Below are positions 1,171 to 61,526 of a stretch of DNA of 64,000 bases, piece after piece (within the stretch, counting starts at the first letter, position 1; each line of letters starts with the position of its first letter). This stretch comes from Epinephelus fuscoguttatus (lineage: Eukaryota; Chordata; Actinopteri; Perciformes; Serranidae), in contig NC_064756.1 in the NCBI RefSeq assembly GCF_011397635.1, forward strand, positions 3,428,922 to 3,492,921, given 5' to 3'. A program made the translations under genes and the position numbers. The notes below the pieces were generated by a model. That model had not been told where the DNA came from, searched no databases, and saw only the letters and a program-made list of their open reading frames with translations.

Positions 1171-2031
1171 ACGGCTCTGTCACTGTTTTTTTGGTGGTCT
1201 AAAAACGGGGAAAATGCACTTGTCAGTATGTCAGAGAACAAAAGAAGAGGTGGAGTCAGAGTGATGTAACAGCAGCAAGAAAAACACACAATTTCTTACG
1301 CGTCAATTAAAGCCCAACATACAGTATATATTGTCTGATCAGCTGATAACAGACACGGAACTGAAGAACAGAAATGCCAAAGATTTGTTTTGAAATGTTT
1401 TTATTTTGTCACAACTGTAAAATGTCCTGCAAAGTATATTTCTCAGTTGCAAATATATATATATATAATATCTAAAAAACAACAAGCAAAAACCACATCA
1501 ACAATGTGTATAAATGTTCTGCAAAGTAAATATGTTATCATCAGATTTAAATAGTCAAATATTAGTTTTGGTATCAGCCTCAGAAACAATGCATCATTCA
1601 GACTTTACTCTTTAATTTTCTAACATGAATTATTGTGCTCATTCTGCAGCCCTGGTGTCTGTGTGCATGCTGTCATGTGTGAGTCCGTGCTGACTCACAC
1701 GGCCGTGTTGCGTAACCTTTGTCGTGGCCTCGGCTGAGTCCTGTTTCAGATGGTAATCACCGCTCGGTTGTGTTCAGGCAGGACTCAACCAGCTGAGGCT
1801 GCAGCCGGCGTTACATAAACCTCATCACAGACACACAGACAGAATTCACCATTCAGCGTCACGACAGGAAGTTTTCATCAGAGCGTTCATGCTGGACGGG
1901 AAGCTGAGGAGCACACGTGTTGTCGTCACGTGATCACTACATTGTTACTCTGTCTTGAGGAGCTGCAGTGTTTTTTATTCTCAGACAAACTGAAACCAAC
2001 ACTGAACATTTGCTGCTTGACAACTTGACTG

Positions 2032-2410
2032 GGGCGGCACGGTGGTGTGGTGGTTAGCACTCTCGCCTCACAGCAAGAGGGTTGCCGGTTCGATCCCGGG
2101 CGTGGGAGCCCTTCTGTGTGGAGTTTGCATGTTCTCCCTGTGTCAGCGTGGGTTCTCTCCGGGCACTCCGGCTTCCTCCCACAGTCCAAAGACATGCAGA
2201 TTGGGGACTAGGTTAATTGATAACTCTAAATTGTCCGTAGGTGTGAATGTGAGCGTGAATGGTTGTCTGTCTCTATGTGTCAGCCCTGCGATAGTCTGGC
2301 GACCTGTCCAGGGTGTACCCTGCCTCTCGCCTGATGTCAGCTGGGATAGGCTCCAGCCCCCCCGCGACCCTCAAGAGGATGAAGCGGTTAGAAGATGAAT
2401 GAATGAATGA
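2032..2410 (+). mobile_element. tRNA-derived SINE, apparently full length
   Basis: A tRNA-like head begins ggggcggcacggtggtgtgg and carries Pol III box A-like (tggttagcactc) and box B-like (ggttcgatccc) motifs. A conserved body follows (tttgcatgttctccctgtg, ccacagtccaaagacatgca, aattgtccgtaggtgtgaat, gggataggctccagc), and the element ends in an (atga)n tail. The 12-base sequence acaacttgactg lies at 2020-2031 and again at 2411-2422, a perfect target-site duplication. This marks a complete and comparatively young insertion. Related copies lie at 8075, 46826 and 51310. Confidence 0.85.
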
Positions 2411-2850
2411 ACAACTTGACTGCTGATTTCTTCTCTGCTCCGATCGCCTCTCATGACACGAGTCGTCATTCCCAACTCAGTCTGATGTTTTTCTCTGAGA
2501 CACAATGAATTTTTTGACCGCCATTTCATCAGCTAGGTGACTAAGCCTGCCTGTCTTTGTCTGACTGGCCAGAGATGGTACTTATCAGATAAAGTAGCAC
2601 CTGCGAACAATCTCTTCTCATTCTGAAGTCGTCAAATAACGCTGTTTGATTAGTGATTTCCACGTCACACACCAATGAGAAAAGCCGTCCTGTAGCGGTG
2701 CTGTGATACCCAGCTGGGCGGTGTGTGTTTATAACTTCACCAGACGGTGTCAGTTTGAAATGCTGTTGGAAAACAATGTGATTTTAGGAGCTGGAAAGTC
2801 CTTGTTCAGCGGACGGGAGGGGAGGTGGATGGTTCCAATAAACGGTCCAG

Positions 2851-3466
2851 AAGTTCAAACATTTATATTTGTATTCTAGATCTAAGCAGCTAGCTAACAT
2901 TAGCTCAGTTGGATCACCAGCAACCTGTTTTATACATCGAGGAACTTCTACAAAAAAAATGAGCTGCTTGGCAACCAGACCAGGCCTCTAATTGAGACAG
3001 GCCTTAATTTGTTAAAATGTGTAGCCACACCAGGCTAGTAAACTTTTATTTTACATTTGATTATGACTCTTGCATTAATGCACTGGTTGAGGTGAAGGTC
3101 ATTGTAAACTATTAACTAATGTTAATTATTCCTCTGTACTGCAGATAGCTGTGGCCCGAGGCATTATGTTTTCGGGTTTTCCATCCGTCCATCTTTGTGA
3201 ATGCGATATCTCAAGAACACCTCAAGGGAATTTTTTCAAATTCGGAACAAATGTCCACTTGGACATTTTAGGAAATTATTAGATTTTGGTGGTGACATCA
3301 TAATGGCAACATTTTTCTGACCATTACTCAGCGTCATATCTCAGGAACAGAAGGGGAGACATTTGGTCAGATACTGAATTGGTGACTCTGATCTTGAAAC
3401 TGTGCTGATTGTATAGATCTTCTGTGTGTGAAGCATCCATGTTTTCACTGACATGGATGGGGACTA
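2851..3466 (+). repeat. 0.6-kb block duplicated inside clip3 intron 3
   Basis: This block is almost the same as 15848-16457, which lies in clip3. Both run through tctaagcagctagc, the a-rich tctacaaaaaaaatgagctg, aattgagacaggccttaat, gcattaatgcactggttgag and the repeat C sequence. By eye only scattered substitutions and a short indel near 3255/16255 separate them. The second half contains dispersed repeat C (gatatctcaagaacacctc and atctcaggaacagaag). No coding potential is seen. Confidence 0.75.
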
Positions 3467-5690
3467 TAAGCGAAACTTGACTGGTGCGAGGAGGCACACA
3501 TTTACAAGGCGGTATTTCCAGTTTTTCTGCACCTCGACATGTGCTTTTGTTGCACAAGGAAATAAATGTAAATACGTGGATGTTTTCCCAACGGTGTAGG
3601 TTTATTTAAAAAAGACCATCTGCATCTAACGAGCAGAAACTGCACATTTCCTGTGAAAACAAAAGTGTATTTCACAATGCACGTGACAGGTGTAAAGTGA
3701 CATGGTGTCCCAAAATGTCAACAACAGACACACCCATGCTGCCTAGTGTGTCATATGTAGACGTTAAAAGTCTACTGAACAATCAGCGATAGTTGACGAG
3801 TCCGGAGAGAGAACATGTTGCAACGACAAAATGTAATTTTATTCTTAATATTCAAAGTGCAACATGGCAGCTATGTGTTTATCGCACAAGTTGACATCAC
3901 GATGATGATACAAAACAACATGCTGTGACCTGTTAATAATTTGAGGTCAAATTTAAATTGAACTGTTTTCTAACAGTCAGAATCCCTCTGTGTGAACAGT
4001 GACAGTAACAGAGCTGCTGCTTGTGTGGATTAAACTGAGCAGACTATAGAGACATCTCACACCCCTCCCTTGACCTACTTGTGATCAGTGTGTGTGTGTG
4101 TGTGCAGGCGGATAAAGAGGATGTTACTGGTTTAACTGGCTTCTTGTACGAGCTGAATGCTGCTGCTGTGCTCTCTCGTGGCGTCCTTTAGGTGCAGTGA
4201 AACTGTTCTTCCTGTGTGACTCAGATGTGATGGTTTCTGATCAGTGTGCGCCCGCTGCTGTTCACAAGAGTTAGGTTCATATTTAAACATCCAGTGCCGA
4301 TACAGGAAGAATTTAACCTGGTTCCAGAGCTCTGAGTCTCTGCAGGGAGTTACGCCTCCTACAGACTGTGAGATTTTAGCAATCCTATAAGTTTAGTGCA
4401 GCTACACTGTGTGACATGGATCTGATAAACATGGGAACAACATCAGGTTTGATGTCTGCAGACTGTACGATGACAGCGCTGACTGAATCACAGGCTACGA
4501 TGTACGATGGAGTTATTACCCCTCCAACTGTGAAGTTTTGTGGGCGCTATATACTGAGGCATGTGTGTGTGTGTTTGCAAACTGCTAGGTGTCTCACCTG
4601 GCAGCTGTAGCTCCACCTCTATTTCCTTCCATGCTTCGTCCTTCTTTATGCGATCATGGTGGTAACAGCAGTCACACAGTGAGATGGTCATCCCAAAGAT
4701 ATGACACTGTTCCAGGCTGTCTTTGATCGTGAGACTGTGACAATGTTCATCCTTGAACCTCTCTCACTGTGTGATGTAGGACCACTGTTTTAGAGCCACA
4801 ACCAAAGATATCACCACGTTACTTTATCGTTGGTCATCCTTCATCTGGGACAGCCATTTATACCGGGCTTAAAACCTGTCTGATGTTGTGCTCAGTGACA
4901 GCTCTTTCCGTGACTGGAAAAATGGCTGAGCCAATCACAGTGTTGTAGGAGGGACTGAAATGAAGACATTTCCGTACGAGGAAAACGTGGACAAAAAATG
5001 TCCTTCAATGTGAGCCCAAGTTGACCTCTCTATCTTGAAAGCTACACTTGCTTTGGCCTAAATTCGTCACAATACCTCACATCAGAGAGTTTTCAGTCAC
5101 TTCAGAGAGTCTACATGCCAGCAGTGTGAACCCAGGAATGTTGAGTTCCCCAAAGTTTTATGTTGGAAATGTACAGAATGTTTCCCCAGCATTTAGAAAC
5201 TGTACCCTGTACCCCTACACGTATCATATCATATTAATGGACACTTTTATAAAACGTTGACTGCTGAGATTGTTGCCATCTGTTGATCCATTGACATGTT
5301 GATTTAAAAATGAAAAGTCAGTAATGTCAATATCAGATTAAGTCCAGTTTAAATTTACGTTGATGAAAAAGACGTGCTAAAACACTTTTTATCCTCTTTA
5401 AGACATCCGTGTGAATCTTTCTGTTGAGAAAATGTTTCAAGAATTTCCTTCCTCCCTCGGATGTGTGATGGTGATAGAGGAGAAGATGGAGGCTCGATAA
5501 CGGAGGGAGTGGCCGCTGGATGGAGATCAGCGTCTCGTCCATTTGCTAAAGTGGAGAGTAGATTTAATCCAGTCAGGTCTGTCAACAGCTAATGACGGAC
5601 AGTGAGCATTAGCATTAGCCTTTTTAGCCACTGCCATTATCAGTACAATGCAGCGGGTTAATTATCCTGCTTCTCCCTATTTTCTCCCTC

Positions 5691-6507: not shown

Positions 6508-7729
6508 AGAGGCAACAGATAGGATTCGTTTTTTTTTGTTTTTTTTTAACTTGGTGCCACCTAGCGTCAGCGGTGTTGCGTCGCACTGTCGCAACAACCA
6601 AATTGAACGTGGGGATCAGAGATAATCAATAAAATGTAGGCTGTAAAGCCACCAGTATACCTCTATGTATATGTAGAATGAGAAGGTGTGTGGACACTCT
6701 ACTAAATAAATGAGTAAAGAGACCGAGCAACAATTATCAGATTTATCTGAAGAAAAAACAAATAGTAATGCAAATAATTATAGCAGAATGCACAGTACCA
6801 GTAAATGATACCAATATGTACAGTACCAGTACAAACAACAGTAGACACAGTGGAATTATACCAATATGCACATGTAAACAGTCCCCATTCTAGAATAAAC
6901 GCTACCGTATGGAAACCATGCGGCCGGTTGGAGCTCAAATTGAATGGGAAACAAAGTTCAGTGTTCACTTAGCTGGGCGTAACTTAGCTGGGCGATGTCC
7001 GTGGATAGCTGCCTCCGTGAGAAGAGAACAGAAGGAAGGGAGGGGGGTATCACTGTCCGAGGGCTGCCGTAGAATGGCAACCAGGATGTCAGCCGACCAA
7101 CACTCGCTACCCGCTCCCTGGTCCTGGTTGCGGCGATTTGCGATGCTGGCCAGCTAGGAATGAACTAGCAGCCAGTACAGTCCAGTCCTCGCTGGTCTAG
7201 CTAATATTTAGCCGTGTTACTTACTGATCCATTAGAAAGAAAGCTAGCTGGACATGGGTTTTGAAGCCTCTTTGGTCACGGAGCTCCCTCCATCTCTTGA
7301 ATGCCTGACTGAGGTTTACTCTTGTTTTTCCTCTTCTTTTATCACTCTCCTTTTTGCTCTTCTTTGCCTCCTCACACAGAGGAGCTCCTTTTCTTTTGCT
7401 AGGCCGTTTTTCACTTGTCTCCAAACTTTGTCCGTCTGCCATTGTGCTCGTGACTCAACTATCTCATGGCCAACTCCTCATAAGGACCAGCTCCAGTCCC
7501 TGATTGGCTGACCAACCAGTTTCGCTATACACGACGCGTTTCCTGCTGTAAAGCAGATTTTTTCCGCAAAATTTCGCCCCCGGTGGCAGAAGCTTATTGC
7601 AAAGATTGCAAAGCCACTAAGAAACCTATGTAAACACTGATAGTCTGATTTTACTGTGGCCACTACCCTGTGCAACCCACATTATTTTCATCATGATATA
7701 TTTAGGAAAACATGCTATCTGTTGCTTCT
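6508..7729. mobile_element. TTAA-flanked inverted-repeat DNA element, 1.2 kb
   Basis: The left end reads TTAA then agaggcaacagatagga. The right end is its inverse, ctatctgttgcttct then TTAA. The TTAA copies are at 6504-6507 and 7730-7733. An imperfect inverted terminal repeat of about 17 bp with a TTAA target duplication is characteristic of piggyBac-like and Kolobok-like DNA transposons and their non-autonomous derivatives. The interior contains no transposase that I recognise. Confidence 0.65.
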
Positions 7730-8074
7730 TTAAAGGAAGGAAAATGGAAGGGCTATTGTTGGTTGAAACTTGAAACCATTTTGGAAATAGCTCAAATAAA
7801 GGGGAGATTCTCCGTCCAGAGGTACACAGTATATGGGGTGCCGTTTGTAAAGTGTCTCACACTGAAAATGACATCAACGTTTTGCCACATTTAGCTTCAA
7901 ACAATGTTTAAAAAAGTATTGTGAATTTTTTAACGTCACCTTTTACCACATTTACAGCAATATTTGTTAACATAGAAATATATTAAGTAGTTAAATCTAA
8001 ATATTAAATGTGGCACCTAAATGTTAAATGATAAATCTAAATATTATATCTAAATCTAAATCTAAATCTAAATG

Positions 8075-8433
8075 CATTCATCTTCTAACTGCTTCATCCT
8101 CTTGAGGGTCGCGGGGGGGCTGGAGCCTATCCCAGCTGACATCGGGCGAGAGGCAGGGTTCACCCTGGACAGGTCACCAGACTATCACAGGGCTGACACA
8201 TAGAGACAGACAACCATTCACACTCACATTCACACCTACGGACAATTTAGAGTCACCAATTAACCTGCATGTCTTTGGACTGTGGGAGGAAGCTGGAGCA
8301 CCTGGAGGAAACCCACGCTGACACAGGGAGAACATGCAAACTCTACATAGAGGGGCTCCCACGCCCGGGATCGAACTGGCAACCCTCTTGCTGTGAGGCG
8401 AGAGTGCTAACCACCACGCCACCGTGCCGCCCC
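8075..8433 (-). mobile_element. tRNA-derived SINE inserted in the fold-back left arm
   Basis: This is a reverse-oriented copy of the SINE at 2032-2410. Its (atga)-type tail is at 8075 and the tRNA-like head ends at ccgtgccgcccc (8433). It splits the (taaatc)n array of the left arm, with taaatctaaatg-like sequence on both sides, so it inserted after that array existed. Confidence 0.85.
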
Positions 8434-8802
8434 TAAATCTAAATCTAAATGCTAAATCTAAATCTAAATCTAAATCTAAATATTACTGGACTAAATATAA
8501 ATGGACACTTGAACATACATTAGCGTGATAATAACTACCTAAAATAACAAGAAACGTGTTTGGAGAGATTTTATTTGATGTGTACTTTGAGTTGTTAGTG
8601 TCCCTTCAGAGAGTTGTTTACAAATACTTCCGGGTAGAAAACCAGCGGAGTTTAGCTACATATATATATGAATATCTCACGTTTTTCACGTCACTATATC
8701 ACCGTTTAGACTAATCTGGTGTTTGTAAAGTCTATAAACACAATGATTGAACAAACCTTACTATCACGTTCTGAAATTAATAACATGGTTATCGTAGATT
8801 AG

Positions 8803-8830
8803 CGGGGCTAACCGTTAGCTGTTAGCCCCG
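8803..8830. repeat. Perfect 10-bp hairpin
   Basis: cggggctaac (8803-8812) and its exact inverse gttagccccg (8821-8830) are separated by 8 bases. It lies in the part of the left fold-back arm that the right arm lacks. Confidence 0.6.
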
Positions 8831-9436
8831 TAAGCGGTGTCTGTAATGACTCACTAACTCTAAACGGTCCGTGAAACAAATATTTTTTCCAGCGGATGTC
8901 TTAGTTACAACATGATTGAGCTAACTGGAGTAGTTTCATGTCGTATCCGACAACGGGAGGCTTTTAACAGATGACGTCCTGATAGCTTTGCTGCTGCTGC
9001 AGCCACTGATGCTTTCTAGACATCGTGATTGATGAAACTAAATAAATACCACACACACAAATACCAACACACTGCTTTGCTAGCTCAATCATGTTGTAAC
9101 TAAGACATCCGCTGGAAAAAATATTTTTTTCACGGACCGTTTAAGAGTTAATGAGTCATTACAGACACTACTAACAGGGCTAAGAGCAGACGGTTGTTAA
9201 TCCCTACGAAGGGACACTAACAACTCAAAGTACACGTCAAATAAAATTTCTCCAAATATGTTTCTTGTTATTTTAGGTAGTTATCATCACGCTAATGTAT
9301 GTTCAAGTGTTCATTTCCCCCGATAAGTTGGTTTTAATTCGTTATTTGATTCTATAAACACAGTCTGACCATCTCGAGCTTTTATTTTGGTACTTCCGGT
9401 GACCGGCAGTGTGAATTTGCATATTAGCTAAATATT

Positions 9437-9957
9437 TAGTTTCACCCAGAACATTTAGATTTAACATTTAGATTTAGATTTAGATTTAATATTTAGATTT
9501 ATATTTAGATTTAGCATTTAGATTTAATATTTAGATTTAGATTTAACATTTAGATTTAGATTTAGATTTAACATTTAGATTTAGATTTAGATTTAGCATT
9601 TAGATTTAGATTTAACATTTAGATTTGGATTTAGATTTAGCATTTAGATTCAGATTTAACATTTAGATTTAGATTTAACATTTAGATTTAGATTTAGCAT
9701 TTAGATTTAGATTTAACATTTAGATTTATATTTAGATTTAGCATTTAGATTCAGATTTAACATTTAAATTTAGATTTAGCATTTAGATTTAGATTTAACA
9801 TTTAGATTTAGATTTAGCATTTAGATTCAGATTTAACATTTAGATTTAGATTTAACATTTAGATTTAGATTTAGATTTAACATTTAGATTTAGATTTAGC
9901 ATTTAGATTCAGATTTAACATTTAGATTTTTAATATTTAGATTTAACTATTTAATAT
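9437..9957. repeat. (atttag)-type hexamer array
   Basis: About 520 bp are built almost entirely of tttaga hexamers, with atttaac and atttagc variants that give a loose higher-order period. It occupies the right fold-back arm. The inverse array in the left arm (about 7996-8074 and 8434-8485) totals only about 130 bp, so the right array has expanded or the left has contracted. Confidence 0.9.
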
Positions 9958-10199
9958 ATTTCTAAGTTAACAAATATTGCTGTAAATGTGGTAAAAGGTG
10001 ACGTTAAAAAATTCACAACACTTTTTTAAACATTGTTTGAAGCTAAATGTGGCAAAACGTTGATGTTATTTTCAGTGTGAGACACTTTACAAACGGCACC
10101 CCATACACAGTATGATAACTGTCACCTTTTTATCACAGTGTGCCTTAAAACCAGTTTATCGCTGCAGCTCTGACTATGACATAATAATTTGCAAAAGAG

Positions 10200-10375
10200 G
10201 AACTGTTTTTAAGAACAGGAACAGAAGGGGAGACGTTTGGTCAGATACTGAATTGGTGACTCTAATCTTGAAACTGTGCTGATTGTACAGATCTTCTGTG
10301 TGTGAAGCATCCATGTTTTCACTGACATGCATGAAGACTGTCAGAGACACTGGACTGATGTGCATAGACATACAA
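10200..10375 (+). repeat. Dispersed repeat C, copy
   Basis: gaacagaaggggagac, ttggtcagatactgaattgg, gtgctgattgtacagatc and gaagcatccatgttttcac match the copies at 3330, 16330 and 24120. It lies just outside the right end of the fold-back element. Confidence 0.6.
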
Positions 10376-10796
10376 CTGCAAGGTGATAATTCTAGTTATT
10401 AACCTATATTAATTTTTTTCCCAACACAATACAGCTGCACACCTGAGCTTCAGTAATCCTGCAGTAAAGTAAAACATTTTGAATGTGTTTATAATGTGTA
10501 AATACAACCTGTACCCGGTGTCTCGTGGTATTGTGTGTAATATCCATGATGGTGATGAGGCAGGGAGAGCAAACAGTTGAAGTTTTTCAGTTGAAGTCTT
10601 TTACATGTCTGTGTCAGGGGCACACAGTCTGTCATTTCAATGCAGAGACTTTATAACTCAGTGTTTAAACCATGCATGGCTGACTGTCTCTGTCTTATTA
10701 ACATGGAAGCAGCAGGAATGTTCCAACACTAGAATATAGAAGTGATTTAGTGCTGCTTAGAAACATTATTAAAGTGTGGTTCCTCCTCTCTGACAG

Positions 10797-13700: not shown

Positions 13701-16700
13701 GGGAGCCCAGACTTTTGTAGGCAATATTATCATTATGTGTGGGCTATACATCAGTACATATTATAGATGTATAAATGAAATATTCCAACCTCAGCTGGAG
13801 TTTGACTGCCCATTGCAACGCTGTTGACCGCAGCGGTGGTTTCTTTCCAGGCTGTGGTTTTTTTTCACTTCCTTAAATGAAACGTTTCAGGCCACCAAAT
13901 AGAACGAGTTGGTTAAATTGGACCGGCGACATCTGCGTTTCCATTTCTAGCTCAGAGAAGTTTCTATTCTTGGTTGTGTTTGTGTTGAAAACAAGGATGC
14001 AGACTTTTGTCTTAATATTGTCTTGTTACTAAGGAAGTTTTTCATTGATTAATGTGGATACTTTAAGACTCAACCCAGTTTGAACCACTGGAAGAATGGT
14101 TTAAGAGATTATATTTCTTCCCTTGATACATATCCTAACTTTTACTTAAACTCTATTCTTAACCAAAAACAAAATCTGAATCTATCATCTAATGGTTTTC
14201 CTGGTGGAGACCTTTCTGTCCCCTGTGGGCGGAGAGTCCCCACAATGTCAGTAACACAAGTACTCACACAATCATGGTGATGCTGACCCAGTTAAAATGG
14301 CTACACGGACTTGAAAAGACAGAAAAGGAGAGCAGGGAGAAAGTGGTGCAGAGGGAGAGAGACTGAAAGTCATCGAGGCTCTACCATGACTCAGCAGGAA
14401 GCTGACTCAGCCTGGAGGAATAAAACAGTGACATGACTCAGAAACAGACAGAATGATGAGGGGAAGTCTCATCGAGACAATTGCTGACCTGTCATGTCAA
14501 ATTTTGTGCAACTACTTCCCACATGAAGTTGATTTAAAGCCTCATGTCATTATTTTAATTTGAATTTGGTTGGTAATCATTCTGTGAGATTATATGATGG
14601 AGAGATGAAGAGCTCAAATTAGAAAACCTGATATTGTGTAATAACACAAATATCAAAAACAAGTATTCACTCCAAATCTTTTTAACAGGATTAACTAAAG
14701 ATTCACTGAACAAACAAACAAAATGGTGTCTTTGAGCTGTCTCTGTCTCTCTCTGTTTTTGTCTCAGATCCTGAAGCGCGGTTGCCATGTGAACGACCGT
14801 GACGGTCTGACCGACATGACGCTGCTTCACTACAGCTGCAAGGCTGGTGCACATGGAGTCGGTAAGATATATTTAATGTGAATCCAATCAGTCATTCTGG
14901 TGCTGGACTCTTCAGCTGCACTGCAGCATTTGTAGGAAGGTAATCAGTGACAGGAAACGCCTGGTGTTATTTTATCTTTCAGTTAGTTAGGTAATGATTG
15001 TAATAATGAATGTCGACTGTTTAGCCAAAGCTTGATCGAACTTATTCCACCATGTAGAGTCGAGTCAATTATATTTATATTCTGAAACAGTAATGGAGGA
15101 AGTATTCACATCCTTTACTGAAGTAAAAGTACTAATACCACTCTGTAAAAATACTCTGTTACAAGTAAAGTTCTGCATTGAAAATGTTTCTTCAGTAAAA
15201 GTATGTAAGCATCATCAGTAAAATGTAGTTAAAGTATTTAAAGTATCAAACTGTCCCCTGTGACTGTTAAAGCCCAGGCTATTTCTAAAATCACTGAACT
15301 CATCAGGCCTATATTTGGGACAGGCCTTTAATTCCTTTTACACAAAACTGTTGCTCAGCAAAGATGGGAGATACGATCAAATTGTTTATTTGAACCAGTA
15401 TGAACATTACTTGTATAAAAGTTATGCTTCAAATAACATATCAATTATGAATCATTCATTTGATCGAGCTCAGAGAGAAAACACATCAGAGAGAGTTACA
15501 ATACTCAAGGATTACGGCACCTGGCATACCAACACAACACCACTCCTGTTAAAGCAATATTCATAACTCTGATTAATTTTTATTAAAAAAACCCTTCAAT
15601 TCTTTTGGTTGGTGGACCCCTCCAGACTGAAGGAGTATAAATAATTAACGAAATCAAGGAATGGACACGTTTTATCTCTTCGACAGCTCCAGAGGAAGGG
15701 AGTCACCACTTGTTTTTTCATCGTAGTGGCAAATCCAAATGAATTACGGTCGTCTCTGGTGCTGATGGTTTTAGTAAAATGAACTGAACCATTGAACTGC
15801 AGAGAATCTAACCGAGCTAACGATGTGTAGCGTCTCCATTTTGACAAAAGTTCAAACATTTATATTTGTATTCTAGATCTAAGCAGCTAGCGAACATTAG
15901 CTCAGGTGGATCACCAGCAACCTGTTTTATACATCGAGGAACTTCTACAAAAAAAATGAGCTGCTTGGCAACCAGACCAGGCCTCTAATTGAGACAGGCC
16001 TTAATTTGTTAAAATGTGTAGCCACACCAGGCTAGTAAACTTTTATTTTACTTTTGATTATGACTCTTGCATTAATGCACTGGTTGAGGTGAAACTCGTT
16101 TTAAACTATTAACTAATGTTAATTATTCCTCTGTACTGCAGATAGCTGTGGCCCGAGGCATTGTGTTTTCGGGTTTTCCGTCCGTCCATCTTTGTGAATG
16201 CGATATCTCAAGAACACCTCAAGGGAATTTTTTCAAATTTGGGACAAATGTCCACTTTTAATTATTAGATTTTGGTGGTGACATCATAATGTTCTGCATA
16301 AAACAGTTTTCTGTCCATTATTTAACGTCATATCTCAGGAACAGAAGGGCAGACATTTGGTCAGATACTGAATTGGTGACTCTAATCTTGAAACTGTGCT
16401 GATTGTATAGATCTTCTGTGTGTGAAGCATCCATGTTTTCACTGACATGGATGGAGACTGTCAGAGACACTGGACTGGTGGGCGGAGTCATACAACCACA
16501 GGGTGGACTGGTGGGCGGAGTCATACAACCACAGGGTGGTTATTCTAGTTTTCATTATGGATTAATCTGATTATTTTTTCTCCAGTAATGAATTGTTTGG
16601 TTTGTAAAAATACTGAGACAGTGAGAAATAGCATCACAATGACCTAGTGTAGAGCTGAAAGTGACAGTGAAACAGTGTTTGTTTTGTCCAACCAACAGAC

Positions 16701-20100: not shown

Positions 20101-22813
20101 CAAATAATTACAAATTACAAAAAAACAAAAGGATTTCTGTAGCATTTTTACTTTTTGCTTTATCAACAATGTACTGTATACCACTGTATCGTACCGAACC
20201 GAACTGTGAATTTTGTGAACACCCCTGATAAGTACCTCACACAACACAACTTCAAACTATCCCTTTAAAGCTTGCAGTTGTGTTGTGTGATGGATGTCAG
20301 TTTGTCCTTCACACCTTCAAGCTGTATGAGCTCTGAACAGTGTGTTCTCGCTCTGTAGCTCCAGACAGACCAGAGCCGAGATGACAGCCCGGCTGCAAAC
20401 CTCACACAGGTTGGTTGGACTGGGCGCCGGCTGGAACATAGACTAACTGAACTGACTGCACCACTCTGACAACACTTTCTCTTCCTGTCACATGACAAAT
20501 GAAAACCTGATAATCTGCACGCCATCTGTAGCGTTAATGTTACACTTCCTCCCCGTCCCCTCCATAAAACACAGCAGCAGACACTCAGACTTTCTGCTTC
20601 CACGCTACCTGAATGGATCTCTGCAGGCATGTTTCCAGCCGGGGAGGAATTTCACCTCTGACTTTATCTTTATCTTTCTTTATCTTCATCTCTGTGTGTC
20701 TCTCTCAGACCGGCACTCTCAGGTTTTGCGGTACTACAGAGTTTGCCAGTGGTCAGTGGGTCGGCGTGGAGCTCGACGAGCCAGAGGGAAAGAACGATGG
20801 CAGCGTGGGCGGCGTTCGCTATTTTATCTGCCCTCCTAAACTAGGTAACAGCATTCTCCATGACTCCAGTGGGATGATGGTGTTGCTCTGCAGGTTCTTT
20901 GAGGTTTCACTGTGTTTGTCTGCAGGGATTTTTGCACCGGTGTCAAAGATTTCCAAAGCTGTGGATCAGACACCTTCATCCGTCACCTCCACCCCCCGAA
21001 CCCCCCGCATGGACCTGGCCTCCCGCCTCGCTGGAAAGACCAAGAAGGAGAAAGAGAAGAAGGAGAAGGAGAGGGAGAAAGGTAACATAGTAGTGATGTG
21101 GTCCAGATTGTGTGTCATACATCAAAATTCTTCAAACTGGACACGTTTTGAAATAGAACATTTATCTATTGATGAATCAGGTGTGAATCTCTGTGGTACG
21201 ATATATTTGTCTGCTGTGCGTTCTCAGCCCAGAAGAAGAAATCATCAGTAGCCAGTCTGGATCCAGAGGGACTCAACGTGGAAGTTGGAGATCAGGTTCT
21301 GGTGGCCGGACAGAAACACGGCATCGTCCGCTTCTACGGCAAGACCGACTTTGCTCCAGGTCTGTCTGCTGGGCTTCAGCACATCGTCTATATTGTGTAT
21401 TGCACACACATCTCAATAGGCTCGTTAGATGCACTGTTTAATTCAAAATACAACTACACAAAATCTATCAACATGAAACAATTTTTACCTGAGCTGTTTG
21501 TGTCTCTGCAGGTTACTGGTTTGGAATTGAGTTAGATCAGGCGACAGGGAAACACGACGGCTCAGTGTTTGGAGTCCGCTACTTCAGCTGCCTGCCCAAA
21601 TATGGAGTGTTTGCTCCGCCCTCCCGAGTCCAGAGGTAAGTCACCACAAACCTGACAGTTTCTCATAGTTTTAGTTCCTCTTATCATATTCTGCCAAAAC
21701 AAGACTTTTAATTCAGCTTTGATGCATGAAAGGCACCGGGTGAGGACATTATAGGTGCATGATGTTCAAACCAGTGGAGGGCTGGTGCAATGTTATGGTC
21801 CACTTTACACCAGACTAACATTTATTTTAAGTCAAGTTTTCTTCTTTTAATTAATTCACTTTGACAAAATCTGTTGCTCTGTCAGAATTGGAGGTCCTAA
21901 AGAAGGCTCACAGAACGACAGCTCCATGGTGAAGAAAGTCCACCAAGTCACCAGTAAGTATCTTTCATTGTGTTGTTGTGTCACCGTCCTCTCCTTGTGA
22001 ATACGATATCTCAAGAATGCCTCAAGGGAATTTCTTCAAATTTGAAAGGATGAAGTGATTAGTTTTTGGTGGTCAAAGGTCATTAATCAAGATCACTGTG
22101 ACCTTGTCTGTCTCATTTTTATGAACGTCATTTTGTGTATGTTGTGTTGCATAAGGGCAATAAAACCTGGAACAATAATACAAAACGTATGGATCAGAGG
22201 CATACAGTACATTTATAAACCTGGAAATATTATCACTGGGCTCACCTTTATGTTCACCCCCAAATCCATAAGTAATGGTGACGTCCTCCTCGTTTCTGTA
22301 TCATTAAAAGTCCGTCATTTGTTTGTTTGTGTTCTGCAGTGTCACAGCCGAAGCGTAACTTCAACACGATGCGTTCTCCTAAAGACCTGACCTCTGAGAG
22401 CTCCATATCCAGGTGAGGTCACAGAGACAGGATCGACTCTCTGACAGCTAATAATAAACCTGTCAGGCTGCGTTCACAACACAGCTGTTCACATCCAAGT
22501 CTGACCTTCTGCCTAAAAATATCTGAAAATATTCCATGTGGGTTTAGAGAAGGAAAAGATTCTCACGTTTACACCTTGCACAGCTAAAGATGGATGTATG
22601 ATGGAGAAGCTTTTACCAGGCGTGTAAACAGAGCCTCAGTTTATGAAAACTGCTGTACTTCCTGCTCTTCTTTCTCTTCATCAGCTCCTCTTCCTTTTGT
22701 TCTTCTGTACGCTCATGCCCCTTCCTCTCCTTATCTCTCTCTTCCTCTTCTCCTCCAGGTTGCTGTTCTGCTGCTGGTTTCCGTGGATGCTGCGCGCTGA
22801 GATGCAGTCCTAA
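10797..22813 (+). CDS. clip3: CLIP3 (CLIPR-59), CAP-Gly domain-containing linker protein 3, 13 coding exons
   Basis: Coding exons: 10820-11240, 12045-12184, 14768-14861, 16921-17082, 17217-17335, 19282-19518, 20709-20844, 20926-21081, 21228-21359, 21512-21635, 21886-21953, 22340-22412, 22759-22813. All junctions are GT/AG and phases agree, giving 638 residues. The first ATG (10820) follows an acceptor at 10796, so the 5' UTR begins in an upstream exon I could not place. Residues 1-140 are acidic, then ankyrin repeats (about 195-322, including [19 protein letters not shown]), CAP-Gly 1 (about 382-447, GKNDGSV) and CAP-Gly 2 (about 507-577, GKHDGSV). The tail is [17 protein letters not shown]. 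In mammals this adaptor acts at the trans-Golgi network, endosomes and plasma membrane, binds microtubules and AKT, and is palmitoylated on the C-terminal cysteine pair, present here as C625-C626. It is longer than the roughly 547-residue mammalian protein because of the N-terminus. Confidence 0.95.
12236..13727 (-). mobile_element. Tc1-like transposon in clip3 intron 2, inactive
   Basis: Imperfect inverted ends (cagtggcgtgcaaaac... and the inverse of ...ggggagcccagacttttg) sit between TA dinucleotides. The transposase lies on the minus strand between about 13180 and 12517 in disconnected frames. Recognisable pieces are a helix-turn-helix region with [11 protein letters not shown], the first catalytic aspartate in [10 protein letters not shown], the second in [10 protein letters not shown], and the third-residue region [11 protein letters not shown], where the expected glutamate (IEHLW) is lysine. 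The frame breaks plus loss of a DDE residue mark a dead copy. The host intron is otherwise intact. Confidence 0.85.
15080..15260 (+). repeat. Dispersed repeat rich in agtaaaagtac
   Basis: ggaggaagtattcacatcc, tttactgaagtaaaagtact and attgaaaatgtttcttcagt resemble sequences at 40160-40330, 56080-56115 and, inverted, 60790-61270. It is a short non-coding family common in fish and lies in clip3 intron 3. Confidence 0.5.
15848..16457 (+). repeat. Duplicate of 2851-3466 within clip3 intron 3
   Basis: This is the second copy of the 0.6-kb block described at 2851, in the same orientation. It ends in repeat C sequence, and at 16474-16540 a short unit containing ggactggtgggcggagtcat is tandemly doubled. 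Confidence 0.75.
17085..17139. repeat. (AC)n microsatellite at the clip3 exon 4 donor
   Basis: The AC run begins at the third base of the intron: the exon ends at 17082, the donor GT is 17083-17084, and acacac starts at 17085. It replaces the usual +3 to +6 donor bases with acac. The intron is only 134 bp long. Confidence 0.95.
17346..17375. repeat. (TTTTA)n microsatellite
   Basis: About six tttta units start ten bases inside clip3 intron 5. Confidence 0.9.
17813..19066. mobile_element. Inverted-repeat DNA element with a nested second element, clip3 intron 5
   Basis: The left end agggtaacttcagta...ttcaacctggaccc has an approximate inverse at the right end, gggtccaagttgaac...ttatccct. About 17990-18615 is a separate repeat family rich in gtgcact/agtgcac words (for example actacgtacttcttgcgtgg). 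An inverted copy of that family, sharing gttggcgataatg and ttttaatcagcat-type words, lies at about 47870-48115. The right-hand TTAA flank is not preserved. No transposase is seen. Confidence 0.45.
19638..20230. mobile_element. Non-autonomous inverted-repeat element carrying a minisatellite, clip3 intron 6
   Basis: The ends are ggggtgtaacaatacacg and, inverted, gtgaacacccc, with internal cggttcggtac/gtaccgaaccg inversions. This is a layout common in fish hAT-type non-autonomous elements (inference). The interior 19878-20100 holds about four tandem copies of a roughly 55-60 bp unit containing gaaagcctaaggcagagag and acctccctgcccttcca, each diverged from the next. Confidence 0.55.
21990..22090 (+). 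repeat. Dispersed repeat C fragment, clip3 intron 11
   Basis: gtgaatacgatatctcaaga, atgcctcaagggaatttctt and tggtggtcaaaggtcatt match repeat C. Confidence 0.55.
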
Positions 22814-23559: not shown

Positions 23560-24676
23560 CTACGTTTACATGCACACAGTAATGCCCTTATCCTGAAAAA
23601 GACAGCATTCCTACATGGGTAATGTTTAAAAATGAATATTTCACTAATACTCCTGCTTACATGCAGCTGTGTATGCTCTGATAGACTCTAGTGCTCTAAC
23701 GTCTTTTTATAGGCAAAATATGGAAAATTAGAATGGCTGGAGCCGCTTGTACCATTTTGCTTCTTTGTGTCAAAATTTTACGGCTCCATGCCGGTGAGTG
23801 TTGTGGCTGGAGCCATAATGTTTTGGGGTTGTTTGTCGATCTCTGCCCCAGTCTTGTGAATGTGATACGCCTTGAGGGAATTCCTTCATATTGGCACAAA
23901 CGTCCACATGGACTCAAGAATGAACTGATCAGACTTTGGTGGTTTGGTGGTCAAAGATCCCTGTGACCAAACATGTTTTTGGAAGTCACCCACTAATTAT
24001 TACAAAACTTCACACAGAATGACGTGACAACATTTAATATCCAGAAGGTCAAAGGTCAGCTTCACTGTGACATCATAATATTTTGTAAAAACACTTAACT
24101 GGCCATTACTCAACGTCACATCTCAGGAACAGAAAGGGAGACATTTGGTCAGATACTGAATTGGTGACTCTAATCTTGAAACATCTGTGTGTGAAGCATC
24201 CGTATTTTCACAGACATGGATGGAAACTAAAAGAGACACTCGACTGGTATACGGAGGCGTACAACCATGGAGTGGTAATTCTAGTTTCAAATTTTTCCCA
24301 CCGGTGGCGGACTCATTGGCACGTGATAACGCAGCCTCCTTCTCTCATTTCGTTAACCACCTTCTTGAAAATGTCGGCATTGCGATATGCACAATGGATT
24401 TTGCACAAATCCATAAACCTGCATGCATCTCTACCCCAGCCTGTGAACTGTTAGCTAGTTGGTTTGTGTACAACTCACAGAGCTGACTAAACAGGCAAGA
24501 GGCCAAGTGTTGACAACTGCAGCAAAAACCACAACTGAGAGAAATATTCCAAAAGTATACATGCCCAAAGAATGCTCCTGGCGTATCCTACATATCTTAA
24601 TCTGGAAAAGGCCAAATTCGGAATAGCCAAAGGAAATATGCTGTTTATTAGGATATTAGTGTGCATGTAAGCGTAG
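23560..24676. mobile_element. Inverted-repeat DNA element containing a nested repeat C copy
   Basis: The left end ctacgtttacatgcacac is mirrored at the right end by gtgcatgtaagcgtag. Inside, 23845-24290 is a long copy of repeat C (ttgagggaattccttcat, caaaggtcagcttcactgtg, atctcaggaacagaaagg). It is non-coding and apparently non-autonomous. Confidence 0.6.
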
Positions 24677-38220: not shown

Positions 38221-39838
38221 TCAGAGGAAGGAGGTGAAGAAGTTCTTCTCTGCTCCAGCTCTGGTGGGAGAGGAGGGGGATTTGACCTTCGACCCGCTGC
38301 ACTGTCGCTTCCTCCTGGCTCTGCGGTTCTTAAACCACACCTGGAACCACAAACAGAAAGAGAGACAAGATTAAACCATCGGAAGTTTGAAAATCCAGAA
38401 ATAATTTCTGTTTTACAGTTTCTAGTTGTGATAAATGGTGTAATTTTGGTGATTTGTCTTTCTTTAAAAATCCGTTATAAAAGAAATACAAAATACAGCT
38501 ATTCAAATGTGTATGCTCCTCCCCTAAGCCAGAAGTCCCCCACAAGTGCTTACTAAATTATCTGACATGCCTCCCCTTTTTGGCACCACTCCCACCACCT
38601 TCATACGAACACTCCCTACGAGGTGAGAGCGGTCTCAGATAGCTTCCATGTCTTTTTTTAATACATAGTTAAGTATTTCAGCAGATTTATTCAGCCAGTT
38701 TCGGGAGCCCTGGGTAATCAGTCCCACTTTCCCCTCCCACTACGACACCAGAAGAATATGGAACGAGAAAGCGATCGTGCGTAAAACTGCCATATGGACA
38801 GGTTCTGCGCATTCCTTGTTCACACATGATTAAAATAAATCACCTGAGCGGCTCCGCATACGCATTTGGGTTGTATATGTTTAATACTGTGAATTATATA
38901 ACTATAAATAATAATTTTCCTTGTAAAAGGACAGACTTGATTTGCCACATAAAAGAAAAAAACTTCATGGATAAGAGCGTGCGTAAAATCCAAACTGGCA
39001 ACATTTTACGCAGGGGCTTTGCGGCCTTTTTCTTTCTCCGGCCTATTAAATTAATGAAAAATAAAAATAAAGGCAACACTGAAACATCACGTGGGACTCA
39101 CCCTGACCGTCTCCTCGCTCAGGCCGGTGCTCCTCGCCACCTCAGCGCGTGCCTCAACTGCCGGATACTCGGTGAGCTCGAACAGCGCCTCGAGTCGCTT
39201 GGTCTGACTGTCGGTGAACACCGTCCTCATCCGGGCCTTCTGACGCGACTGCGCCAGCATCCCGGTTTGATGGTAACCATGGTGACTTGCAAACTGTTGA
39301 GCACCTGGTAAAAAAAAAGTAGCATTTAAACGAGTTAATGGAGCGAAAAACGGAAGAAATGCGCGAAAAGTGATCCTGAATTAAGTATCGCTCTAAGAGT
39401 TTACTCTTAAACTAAAAAAAAGTTTAAATTCAAATACAACTTTATGTCAACAAACTTTTAAAGATTATCTTTAGAAATGTAAAAAATATATATATAATAA
39501 TAACCTGCAGAGTCCTGGCTGCTGCTGAAATGCACGTGAGCTCCTTGTTGTAAGTTTGGATAAATGCTGAAGTCTGTGTGATGGAAACCGGCTCCGCACG
39601 GGCACAACGCCTCTCCGAAGCTCATCCCTCGGTACTGAAGGCAGCCTGACACTGGCACCGGCACCGGCACCAGGACCGGCGCAGGAGGTCTGATGTTCCC
39701 GGAGTCCAAACTGAATCCGCCCTGGATCCTCTGGAGACAGCCTCCTGGTGGAAACTCCATCACCGAGGTCTTGTGTCCGAACTGTGGGGAGAGGATGCGC
39801 TCCATGCTGAAGTCCGACACGCTGCTCCCTCTGTCCAT
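38221..39838 (-). CDS. dharma: Dharma/bozozok-like K50 homeodomain repressor, three exons
   Basis: Minus-strand exons are 39505-39838, 39102-39304 and 38221-38340, with GT/AG junctions in matching phase, encoding 218 residues. Residues 10-17 read FSMERILS, a Goosecoid/eh1-like Groucho-binding motif. Homeodomain residues about 134-193 include RMRTVFTDSQTKRLEALFEL and VWFKNRRARRKRQ; homeodomain position 50 is lysine (K183), as in Goosecoid/Otx/Bicoid types. In zebrafish Dharma, about 192 residues, this pairing of an N-terminal repressor motif with a paired-type K50 homeodomain drives dorsal organiser formation downstream of maternal beta-catenin. The ATG at 39838 is the first in frame and has A at -3 and G at +4. 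An out-of-frame upstream ATG (near 39930) exists if transcription starts further out. A divergent goosecoid-like paralogue is the main alternative. Confidence 0.8.
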
Positions 39839-40016
39839 CGTTACACTTGAATGTCTGAACAAGTTGCTTCTGAGCTCTGGAGCTCCAGTGTCCAGTTTTA
39901 AAGAGAAGCACAAAGTGTGAAGCCGCCATCAAACACCTGACTGCGCTTTAATATGTTAATGAGCTTCTTGAGCGTTTGATGGCTGAAGTTCAGTCAGACA
40001 TGAGAAGAAATCTGGA

Positions 40017-46825: not shown

Positions 46826-47177
46826 ATTCATTCTTTCATCTTCTAATCGCTTCATCCTCTTGAGGGTCGCGGGGTGCTGGAGCCTATCCCAGCTGACATC
46901 AGGCGAGAGGCAGGGTTCACCCTGGACAGGTCGCCAGACTATCGCAGGGCTGACACATAGAGACAGACAACCATTCACACCTACGGATAATTTAGAATCA
47001 CCAATTAACCTGCATGTCTTTGGACTGTGGGAGGAAGCTGGAGCACCTGGAGGAAACCCACACTGACACGGGGAGAACATGCAAACTCCACACAGAAGGG
47101 CTCCCACGCCCGGGATCGAACTGGTAACCCTCTTGCTGTGGGGCGAGAGTGCTAACCACCACACCACCGTGCCGCCC
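46826..47177 (-). mobile_element. tRNA-derived SINE, third copy
   Basis: A reverse-oriented copy of the 2032-2410 family, tail at 46826 and head ending ccaccgtgccgcccc at 47177. It lacks the roughly 12-bp cactcacattca segment found in the 8075 copy. Confidence 0.85.
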
Positions 47178-47460
47178 CCAGAAAAAAGTCGTAATATTAT
47201 GAGAATAAAATTGTAATTTAATGAGGAAAAAAGTCATAATTTAATGAGAATAAAGTCGGAATATTACAAAAATAAAGTCGTAATTTAATGAGAAAAAAGT
47301 CATAATATTATAAGAATAAAGTTGTAATATTACAAGAAAAAACCCGTAATATTACAAGAACAAAGTCGTAATTTAATGAGAAAAAAGTCATAATATTATG
47401 AGAATAAAGTCACAATTTAATGAGAATAAAGTCGTAATATTACGAGAATAAAGTCTGAGT
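47178..47460. repeat. Minisatellite of gtcgtaatattacgagaata units
   Basis: About 14 short units alternate between aaagtcgtaatattac-type and aaagtcataatttaatgag-type forms, each about 20 bp. The array begins exactly where the SINE head ends. Confidence 0.85.
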
Positions 47461-49905: not shown

Positions 49906-51309
49906 AAATGTGAGAACTGTTGCTGGGCTAAACGAGGGTGTTTTTCAGTGGCCTGTCACTGTGTCTCCCACCCCTTATTAGACACGTTAGTGTTTTTTGG
50001 TTGTTGTTTTTTCAGAGGGGAAAACACCATGATAAATGACTGGTTTTATACCAAGGTACTGCTGCTTTGCACCCCCGAGACTGGGTATTTTACAGGGTCT
50101 GGTTTCCTAACCAGAACCTGTAACAACTGGTGAACCAGGTGAGAGTGGACTCAACTGCACGACTCTGTGGATAGTTTGGGTAGAATGAAACAGTCTTCAG
50201 GTGGTTCATTACACAGAGGGATAATCAGTGGAGGCAAACAAATCTTATAGGGATGAGATAGAGGCAGAGTCAATCAACACGTAAAATAAAAATTCCAAGA
50301 AAAGGACACAGGAAAACAACACACACAAGGAGCTAAGATGAAAACTGAAAGAAAACAAGACACAAGCCATGTTTCCATCAGCCTGTTTAGATGTGCATCT
50401 AGAAGTATCGCATTGGAAAATTATGATGAAACGCCAAAATTCGAATTAAAATCCCCTGATTCGCACAAACTAAAATACGCTTTAGCCAGGTTTGGTTGAT
50501 TCACAAAACAGGGGATGGAAACAGTTATGTTCAAATTAAGTCTGACGTAGCGCACCACTCTCCATGGTGATATCCACACTCCGGCTCGGGAAGGCGGTAA
50601 TGCATTTACAAGCTGGTTGCCAACCGCCAGAAAACGTAGAAGAAGAAGTGGAAACACACAGGATTTGTATTTCTTATAGCACGCATTTCCCAATGATTCA
50701 AATCACTTTTGGATGTAAACATAGCTACACACTAAATACTGTGGTGAGGGGAAGGATAACGAGACACAGGTGAGGCTAATCAGGGCCGGACAGACAATCG
50801 GACACAGGTGTAGTCATCAGAAGGGAGGGAAAACACACAGGGGCAGGAAGTGAATCAATTCAATCAATCAATTTTATTTATAAAGCCCAATATCACAAAT
50901 CACAATTTGCCTCACAGGGCTCACAGGGCTTTACAGAGCTGTGACATAACCAAGTGGTTTTTGTAAACCACAGTCCTGCTGACACAGAAAGTTTCATTGT
51001 ACCTTCTACATAATTACATACAAATGTGTGTGGGCTTTGCAGAAATACACAATCAGTGCCAGTTCTGGTGGATGAGTTGCATTGGCACACCTGTTCCCAC
51101 TGTCCTCCTCAGCTCTGCTACGGGCCTTCTTCACCCACCTCCTCACCTGCATCTTTACCCTCATCGGTCTCTCTTCATATATATGTAAAACAGAAGTGGA
51201 CACAAACACATGAGCATAAACTTGACAGAATATAGTATGTACTTTTTAAGGGCAGCTGCATTACCTACTAAAAGTAAAAAGAAAAAGTTTGCGATGGGGA
51301 ACGCACCCT
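49906..51309. other. Intergenic repeats, no gene recognised
   Basis: A second copy of the gacagacaatcggacacagg repeat is at 50764-50853. A common fish repeat, caatcaattttatttataaa / gcccaatatcacaaatcaca, is at 50861-50945. No exon is seen. Confidence 0.4.
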
Positions 51310-51475
51310 CCACCTTCCTCCCACAGTCCAAAGACATGCAGGTTAATTGGTGACTCTAAATTGTCCGTAGGTGTGAATGTGAGTGTGAATGGTTGTCTGT
51401 CTCTATGTGTCAGCCCTGTGATAGTCTGGTGACCTGTCCAGGGTGAACCCTGCCTCTCGCCCAGTGTCAGGATAA
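51310..51475 (+). mobile_element. SINE fragment (3' body only)
   Basis: ccttcctcccacagtccaaa to ccctgcctctcgcccagtgt equals the central body of the 2032 SINE; the head and tail are missing. Confidence 0.75.
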
Positions 51476-52139: not shown

Positions 52140-52626
52140 TCTCTCGTCACCTGAGGCGATACAGAAGTCTCTCTCTGAATAATGTGATCTCTCTTCAGGC
52201 GTGCTTGATTTAGCTCCATTCTGCAGGATTTTTTCTTTCCTCAGTTAGACCCCCCGCCCCCCCCCCTTCTGATAAATCAAACGCGCCCCAGGTTTCCACA
52301 GAGGTGCATGATAACCTCTGCTTCTACCTGAAGACAGAAGGAGACACACAGAACATACAGACATGCTTCTAATTATCACATTTTAAATCCTGTGAAGTCT
52401 GTCTCTCAGTACTGTCTGACTTCCTGACTTCCTGTCTGTGTCCCTGTCTGGTTCTTACCAAAGATGTAAATCTTTAAAAACAACTCACAAATATTTGGGT
52501 TCATATTTTTTAAAAAAAAAGGCTCAGTAATTTCCCAAATGGTGGAGCGATTCCTCAACGAAAGATCACAGATCACTCAAATTCTGCAGAGCAAGAGAAA
52601 ACACCATGTCTGCTGCATGAAGTTGT

Positions 52627-52718
52627 TTCTCTGTGGCGCAATGGATAGCGCATTGGACTTCTAGACAAAGACAGAAGAAGTGTTTCAAAGGTTGTGGGTT
52701 TGAGTCCCACCAGAGGTG
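52627..52718 (+). tRNA. tRNA-Arg(UCU) copy 1, intron-bearing, degraded
   Basis: The anticodon segment cttcta and a 19-nt intron are in place, but the first two acceptor bases are tt instead of gg, position 38 is changed (tttcaaagg), and box B reads ggtttgagtcc. The 5' terminal pair is lost, so it is probably a pseudogene. Downstream sequence (gatctttaaagattgcaaag) is shared with copies 2 and 3. Confidence 0.6.
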
Positions 52719-53115
52719 ATCTTTAAAGATTGCAAAGTTAGGTGGGTGCAAGGTCCTGAGAAGGGAGATCACAGTCCCGGACACACCAAACCGACATCAA
52801 AGAACAAGCAGAGATGAAAGCCACCCATGCGCCACTCCTCGCACTCGCCCTAATAGAACTCCTGCCCCCTTAACTTTCCTTGTTATCCCACCACATTTCC
52901 CCCTGATGCTGCTGGCCGCCATTAAACAATAATGGTGACTGGTTGCGTATCATGCCAACGTGAAAGGATGTTTTTTTCATCGGCGTCTGATGCCAGAAGT
53001 CACTGACCAAGTGCCCGTATTCGACCACCTCAGAGTGAAACCTGGTCGAAATTTTCAAGCAATACTGGGAGTCTTAAGACCAAGAAGACCCACTACATCA
53101 GGCGAAGCAACATGT

Positions 53116-53207
53116 GGCTCTGTGGCGCAATGGATAGCGCATTGGACTTCTAGACAAACACAGAAGAAGTGATTCAAAGGTTGTGGGTTCGAGTCCCACC
53201 AGAGTCG
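53116..53207 (+). tRNA. tRNA-Arg(UCU) copy 2, intron-bearing, intact
   Basis: 92 bases: 37-base 5' half ggctctgtgg...cttcta, a 19-base intron gacaaacacagaagaagtg, and a 36-base 3' half ending gagtcccaccagagtcg. The acceptor stem pairs ggctctg with cagagtc (one G-U), the T stem gtggg/cccac is perfect, and box B ggttcgagtcc matches consensus. Anticodon TCT decodes AGA. The intron position after base 37 is that of vertebrate tRNA-Arg(UCU) genes. No T4 run follows within about 30 bases. Confidence 0.9.
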
Positions 53208-53788
53208 ATCTTTAAAGATTGCAAAGTTAGGTGGGTGCAAGACTTCTGAGAATGGAGATCACAGTCCTGGACACACCAAACCGACATCAAAGAACAAGCA
53301 GAGATGAAAGCCAAATGTTCCGCTGCCTAACGTCACCTGTGTCTTGGCCAAAACTCTCCATACCAGCATTGTGTTTACAGTCTCTTTCAAAATAAATGCA
53401 CTACCTTGGTACAACTCCACAAGCTGATGCTTTTTCCCTCAACAACAAACACAGTTGGTTACATTTAGCCAACACATGCACATGGTTGGGTTTAGAAAAA
53501 AAGAACAGGGTTTGGCTTTGCAATCTTACAGGAAGCAAACACCAGCCTCCCAGGTGAAAGGCTGGGGTTGTTGGACCCCTTCACCCCCTCATGCACTCAC
53601 CCTAATAGAACTTCCGCCCCTTTAACTTTCCTTGTTATCCCACCACATTTCCCCCTGATGCTGCTGGCCGCCATTAAACAATAATGGCAACAGGTTGTGT
53701 ATCATTACAAACGTGAAAGGACAGTTTTTTCATCGGCGTCTGATGCCAGAAGTCACAGACATCATAAGAATCATAAGCAACAACATGC

Positions 53789-53880: not shown

Positions 53881-54039
53881 ATCTTTAAAGATTGCAAAGT
53901 TAGGTGGGTGCAAGACTTCTGAGAATGGAGATCACAGTCCCGGGCACACCAAACCGACATCAAAGAACTAACAGAGATGAAAGCCAATTACTCTACTTCT
54001 GAATCTCTTCACACCAGCAGATGGCAGTAGCCTGTCAGT

Positions 54040-55002: not shown

Positions 55003-55005
<3 letters not shown>

Positions 55006-61522: not shown

Positions 61523-61526
61523 TTAA

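Follow-up and report, generated by a model that had tools for sequence, protein, structure and literature searches.

Mirror-image halves that each hold a short tandem array form a layout best known from insects. Rehavkus is linked with MULE-NOF of RepeatMasker and with FB/NOF of Drosophila, FB/NOF being the type element of MULE-NOF. According to the available part of PMC6446971, Rehavkus transposons generate 9-bp target-site duplications (TSDs), have terminal inverted repeats (TIRs) of 26–400 bp with a minisatellite before the 3' TIR, and encode a PHD finger. They are placed as an outgroup or a relative of Mutator-like elements (MULEs), and the same part of the paper reports them from insects and annelids only. 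It also describes the evidence for MULEs in chordates as limited, judges the MuDR entries of zebrafish to be misidentified, and poses the question of whether Mutator-like elements are truly absent from vertebrates. A teleost table seen in part (PMC4746887) lists both MULE-MuDR and MULE-NOF in the column that comes first, which is read here as zebrafish; the MULE-NOF entry is 1159, taken as the number of copies.

The descriptions of the other comparable systems follow the accessible parts of the cited papers. Tetris of Drosophila virilis is composed of outer, tandem-repeat and inner domains and a non-coding middle. Its tandem unit is ~220 bp, its duplications are 8–10 bp, and neither conserved ORFs nor a transposase-bearing copy are reported in the part seen (PMC4079207). 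Tm1 of root-knot nematodes, which is of the Mutator/Phantom type, has composite ends with 1–9 tandem units of ~14 bp and asymmetric 7-bp termini. Duplications of 8–10 bp, most often 9, flank 45 of its 53 complete elements, and one element is known with a putative Phantom/Mutator-like transposase (PMC3169594). Galileo of Drosophila, a member of the P superfamily, has TIRs of 18–1,250 bp, which in some cases contain tandem repeats of a ~210-bp unit, and 7-bp flanking duplications; its longest-ended copies are without a transposase ORF (PMC3573991). Single elements of Tm1 (PMC3169594) and F copies of Galileo (PMC3573991) are reported to have arrays of unlike length at their two ends. In fish, gadMor-hAT-1784 of Atlantic cod is assigned to hAT. 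It is ~1.3–1.4 kb in total, with no ORFs and with inverted ends of ~600 bp made of 167–169-bp tandem repeats (PMC12368964). The fold-back form alone carries no superfamily information; it arises in different superfamilies (PMC3169594, PMC3573991).

Here, a fold-back element of 2272 bp is located at 7833–10104 of the window, which is the whole 64-kb stretch of Epinephelus fuscoguttatus DNA analysed. By structure it is a fold-back TIR transposon, present as a single copy: inverted ends, a flanking direct repeat, mirrored blocks and minisatellites in both arms are seen. The fairly probable explanation, in our view, is a single non-autonomous fold-back DNA transposon, inserted as a unit with a 9-bp stagger by a Mutator/Rehavkus (FB-NOF)-like mover. 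Its parts are as follows, with the strand where one applies.

7824–7832: left copy of the TSD, ACACAGTAT (end comparison; at least 9 bp in 7 of 56,907 controls)
7833–8008, plus strand: outer terminal domain of the left arm, 176 bp, 28% GC, 4/176 mismatches against 9929–10104
8009–8075, plus strand: TAAATC-based minisatellite of the left arm, outer part (tandem-repeat analysis)
8076–8433 (about): retroposon-like repeat nested in the left array (dispersed copies in the window)
8434–8485, plus strand: minisatellite of the left arm, inner part (tandem-repeat analysis)
8499–8605, plus strand: inner block 1 of the left arm, 6/107 mismatches against 9210–9316
8606–8791: segment specific to the left arm, 186 bp (arm alignment)
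8810–8922, plus strand: inner block 2 of the left arm, 9/113 mismatches and one 1-bp gap against 9082–9195
8923–9081: central spacer (loop), 159 bp (arm alignment)
9082–9195, minus strand: inner block 2 of the right arm (arm alignment)
9210–9316, minus strand: inner block 1 of the right arm (arm alignment)
9317–9445: segment mainly specific to the right arm, with 9 bp (9432–9440) matched to the left arm
9446–9928, minus strand: minisatellite of the right arm (tandem-repeat analysis)
9929–10104, minus strand: outer terminal domain of the right arm, the mate of 7833–8008
10105–10113: right copy of the TSD, ACACAGTAT (end comparison)

The left end opens with ATGGGGTGCCG, and the right end is its exact reverse complement. 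The terminal letters are ATGGGGTGCCGTTTG... at 7833 and ...CAAACGGCACCCCAT up to 10104, and the outermost 37 bp of both ends form a perfect inverted repeat. An earlier note on this DNA had placed the ends at 7833 and 10104 with ACACAGTAT on both sides, and these ends, coordinates and flanking repeats are borne out. The maximum length of the flanking direct repeat is 10 bp (TACACAGTAT), and it permits two symmetrical readings. One has ATGGGG...CCCCAT ends and a 9-bp duplication, and the other has TATGGGG...CCCCATA ends and the 7-bp duplication CACAGTA. The choice matters, since the guess at the superfamily rests on the duplication length. By an estimate that counts chance matches alone, 9 bp is favoured over 7 bp by ~4:1. 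The 9-bp duplication of the earlier note is thereby retained as the better reading, while 7 bp is equally symmetrical.

Control pairs of boundaries, 2272 bp apart, were taken from the remaining window, both boundaries being allowed to move symmetrically by at most 4 bp, and pairs touching the element were excluded. End-flanking direct repeats of at least 9, 8 and 7 bp were found in 7, 18 and 62 of the 56,907 control pairs, respectively. These counts bear on the possibility, opened by the 7-bp reading, that the mover is of the P/Galileo type. The element would then be a Galileo-like fold-back of the P superfamily, mobilised by a P-type transposase, and its perfect ends would be 38 bp long. Galileo itself combines 7-bp flanks with long TIRs that sometimes contain tandem repeats (PMC3573991, in part), and the teleost table (PMC4746887, in part) lists P elements in the column read as zebrafish, its first. 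However, chance matches on both sides would have to extend the 7-bp repeat to 9 bp, which is estimated at ~1 in 16 versus 1 in 4 for the one additional end match that the 9-bp reading requires. Chance also produces a 7-bp end repeat more often than one of 9 bp (62 versus 7 control pairs), and P coding was not recognised in the five ORFs searched against Pfam. A P-superfamily origin is unlikely, if the least far-fetched of the other movers.

Two other superfamilies can be compared at the same ends. hAT transposons have CAG-type ends and an 8-bp duplication with symmetrical ends. The ATGGGG or TATGGGG ends here differ from these, and an 8-bp duplication is possible in this single copy only with asymmetric ends. 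A hAT-derived fold-back like the cod family, with an 8-bp duplication, has a precedent in fish in the ORF-less, tandem-repeat ends of that family (PMC12368964, in part), but the repeat unit is 19 bp here versus 167 bp in cod, and we regard this derivation as improbable. Merlin, reported from zebrafish with 8–9-bp duplications and GG ends, agrees in duplication length and has TIRs of 24 to 462 bp, while its ends begin with 5'-GG in the part of PMC8101967 available. When starts at 7829–7836 and ends at 10101–10107 were compared, a start at GGGG (7835) left no direct repeat of at least 5 bp. Because a GG start leaves no duplication, derivation from Merlin is disfavoured and largely refuted for this copy; its probability is very low.

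The inverted match in BLAST does not stop at 7833 but continues for 7 bp, to 7826, and has 2 mismatches there. This overrun is explained by the partial self-complementarity of the duplication. As the inverted similarity has no clean stop, the outer edge of the element is defined by the direct repeat. The same overrun beyond the proposed end might be expected if there was no transposon but a local inverted duplication (palindrome), produced by repair or template switching, and long palindromes with arm-specific indels can form in this way. A palindrome of this kind is argued against by the 9-bp direct repeat lying exactly at the ends, a coincidence as rare as 7 in 56,907 control pairs, and there is hardly any likelihood left for it. 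The insertion of a transposon with a 9-bp stagger is preferred.

Inverted repeats were scanned with a perfect 14-bp seed, at distances of up to 4 kb and with arms of at least 22 bp, after removal of low-complexity arms. The window contains 65 such pairs, 51 of which are internal to the fold-back element. The fold-back element is alone among the 65 pairs in having a flanking direct repeat of at least 5 bp at its ends.

Another element with inverted ends is present at 61523–62083. It is 561 bp long, its 99-bp inverted ends are 96% identical, and it starts with TTAAAGGGATAGTGCACCC. The TTAA start presumably indicates a MITE of the Kolobok or piggyBac type.

The arms extend over 7833–8922 (left) and 9082–10104 (right), or ~1.0–1.1 kb each. 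The "roughly 1-kb arms" of the earlier note are correct as extents, but the matching unique sequence between the arms is just 396 aligned bp (176+107+113); a minisatellite, longer in one arm than in the other, comes in addition. The matching blocks occur in mirrored order across both arms, and the long inverted arms occupy most of the element, leaving a middle of 159 bp. The minisatellite between the outer and inner blocks is composed of TAAATC/TAAATG words; its unit is 19 bp, and its higher-order period is 82 bp. Its length is ~120 bp in the left arm versus 483 bp in the right arm, where Tandem Repeats Finder reports 24.7 copies of the 19-bp unit over 9450–9929. In the right arm, at least 115 bp from 9317 are absent from the left arm. 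The mismatches are 4/176 in the outer block versus 15/220 in the inner blocks (Fisher p = 0.056); the lower divergence of the outer block is suggestive only.

As single-stranded DNA, the whole element folds with -548 kcal/mol, versus -237 to -372 for nine stretches of the same length from other parts of the window. The predicted fold contains 504 pairs in five long helices, in which the unique blocks pair in register and the arrays pair partly. The inner hairpin at 8810–9195 has a z of -20.75, and none of 100 shuffles was as good. The designation of the locus as a fold-back element in the earlier note was reasonable and is not contradicted.

Short motifs are repeated within the element. The left outer domain contains near-identical 14-mers, TTTTRCCACATTTA, at 7880 and 7941. 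Of 200 shuffles, 3 had a direct repeat at least as good as this one (TTTTGCCACATTTA at 7880 and TTTTACCACATTTA at 7941). The pair is at most a candidate binding site for a protein, present twice. The arm-specific segments at 8606–8791 and 9317–9431 have TCTATAAACACA and ACTTCCGG in common in reversed order. The TCTATAAACACA match between them was reached in 0 of 100 shuffles, and each of the two motifs occurs twice on the plus strand and is absent on the minus strand of the 64-kb window. The left-only segment was considered as the mate of the right-only segment, but no common alignment was seen, because the shared motifs are in reversed order. A terminal-like motif, GTTTGTAAAGT at 8721, was not accepted, as 4 of 60 shuffles were as good. 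The 10-mer AATATTTGTT, found in inner block 2 and in the outer domain, was matched in 0 of 60 shuffles; it came from one of ten comparisons and is not used.

The repeat nested in the left array (~8076–8433) is 358 bp long with 56% GC. Its relatives in the window are at 2031–2404 (minus strand), 46835–47178 (plus strand) and, partially, 51308–51470 (minus strand), with 91–98% identity. One end of the copy at 2031–2404 has an ATTC run, and this copy is flanked by a 12-bp duplication. In the same test, no flanking duplication of at least 8 bp was found for the copies at 46835–47178 and 51308–51470. The copy inside the element has CTAAATCTAAATCTAAATGC on both sides as a 19–20-bp direct repeat. Since this copy is located in the array, its flanking repeat is ambiguous between a duplication and the array period. 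It can be inferred that the nested repeat entered after the left array already existed.

A second instance of the nested repeat beside a tandem array is seen at 47180–47455. This array has a 22-bp unit, AGAATAAAGTCGTAATATTATG, and directly adjoins the copy at 46835–47178.

Eleven ORFs of at least 45 aa overlap the element. The Pfam search (E up to 1) covered five of them, of which two lie in the inner blocks, with 59 and 58 aa, and three in the nested repeat. Of the other six, five straddle an element end and one belongs to the nested repeat. No transposase was recognised in the five inner ORFs searched, of the 11. The two inner-block ORFs and two nested-repeat ORFs hit no Pfam family with E up to 1, and a match of a nested-repeat ORF to Big_12 with E 0.2 was taken as chance. 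The element is regarded as non-autonomous. It lacks a recognised transposase, so its movement probably depended on one supplied from elsewhere.

Coding sequences of other kinds are found in the window. A fragment of a Tc1-type transposase is at 58786–59238 on the minus strand (HTH_Tnp_Tc3_2, E 5.2e-11). A CAP-Gly exon at 20613–21251 has a domain core nearly identical to the solved chain of CLIPR-59 (E 5.4e-29), from which the host is read as an animal and, by the CLIP3 type of the gene, as a vertebrate. At 39087–39928 on the minus strand, ORFs resemble by eye two exons, one with a homeobox and the other N-terminal, with the FSMERIL (eh1-like) motif. These ORFs are perhaps from a dharma-type gene. 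In the Pfam search, the overlapping ORFs at 39458–39928 and 39471–39947 hit no family.

Apart from the relatives of the nested repeat, no further copies of the element are present in the 64-kb window, the first list of matches being that outside 7700–10200. The terminal 18-mer, allowing up to 3 mismatches, matches the two ends alone; neither another copy nor an empty site came to light, nor a transposase of this element. Viral contigs gave 0 exact matches to patterns from four parts (ends, outer domain, minisatellite, inner block 2), and the end patterns gave 0 matches in prokaryote contigs; these collections say little on fish. Letters of the ends, the minisatellite and the nested repeat gave 0 papers in a search of open-licence PMC literature, and none of the titles listed there named the element; Repbase or Dfam may list the family.

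A dispersed repeat is present at 2848–3500, 15845–16494, 10216–10400 and 24067–24286, its long copies being 93% identical. One part of it begins ~110 bp to the right of the fold-back element. The Rfam search of the whole window at the gathering score gave 7 matches, all of them tRNA and all outside the element. These seven tRNA genes, 92–96 bp long and on both strands, lie in a locally repeated stretch at 52626–58344. Six are tRNA-Arg (anticodon TCT), and one is without a clear anticodon.

Comparison with the known systems might shed light on the mover. The minisatellite in both arms indicates a likeness to Rehavkus, Tetris and Tm1. Of the Mutator/Rehavkus features, a minisatellite beside the inverted ends is present, and the duplication, which is 8–11 bp in this group and 7–8 bp in the P superfamily, is readable as 9 or 7 bp. 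Rehavkus is like the fish element in having a minisatellite that adjoins inverted ends of similar length and, under the better of the two readings, a 9-bp duplication. In contrast, its known members encode a PHD-finger transposase, which was not recognised in the ORFs searched of the fish element, and its minisatellite precedes the 3' end only, while the fish element has one in both arms (PMC6446971, in part). Tetris resembles the fish element in its order of domains, its non-coding middle, its duplication length (under the 9-bp reading) and its lack of conserved ORFs and of a transposase-bearing copy in the part of PMC4079207 seen. Its unit of ~220 bp is unlike the 19 bp here, and the likeness is one of description, not of sequence. 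Tm1 is alike in its composite ends and short tandem units, the number of which differs between the ends, and, under the 9-bp reading, in its duplications of 8–10 and mostly 9 bp; its asymmetric termini, its few units and its element with a putative transposase are unlike the present case (PMC3169594, in part).

Galileo is alike in inverted ends of up to ~1.25 kb, in the internal tandem repeats of some copies and in the missing transposase ORF of its longest-ended copies, and unlike in its ~210-bp unit and, under the 9-bp reading here, in its 7-bp duplication (PMC3573991, in part). The cod element is alike in being from fish, in having no ORFs and in its tandem-repeat inverted ends, and unlike in its assignment to hAT, its unit and its total length. 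It also provides a precedent in fish for long arms that bear repeats, which weakens the claim of the earlier note that arms of this length are unusual for a non-autonomous fish element (PMC12368964, in part). The suggestion made there of a Mutator-like mover, from the 9-bp duplication and long inverted repeats and with the family left open, was reasonable and is not contradicted; it mentioned neither the 19-bp minisatellite nor the 7-bp reading.

By analogy with these systems, the element is probably of the Mutator/Rehavkus type. The family is probably new and of a known kind. In the probable course of events, a transposase encoded elsewhere acted in trans and bound the outer domain of 176 bp, perhaps assisted by the repeated TTTTRCCACATTTA motif. 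This mover would be Mutator/Rehavkus (FB-NOF)-like. The element would have been excised and inserted at a target site where the cut was staggered by 9 bp, so that ACACAGTAT now stands on either side. The minisatellite might have grown or shrunk independently in each arm by slippage or unequal exchange, each arm might have gained or lost a segment, and the retroposon would have landed later in the left array.

Beyond this single copy, there might be a vertebrate branch of Rehavkus/FB-NOF, related to Mutator, in the form of a fish fold-back family with minisatellite arms and a MULE-type autonomous partner; this is a tentative proposal, and its truth is doubtful at present. Membership of a vertebrate element in Mutator/Rehavkus would be notable, because the available part of PMC6446971 doubts the MuDR elements of zebrafish and has Rehavkus from insects and annelids only. 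Fold-back elements are reported to seed satellites (Tetris; PMC4079207, in part), and repeat-bearing inverted elements are reported at inversion breakpoints (cod; PMC12368964, in part). A fish family with minisatellite arms would therefore be a further case to examine. With a Rehavkus-like anatomy in a fish, the element provides exact ends, namely its outer 176 bp, for seeking an autonomous partner in vertebrates.
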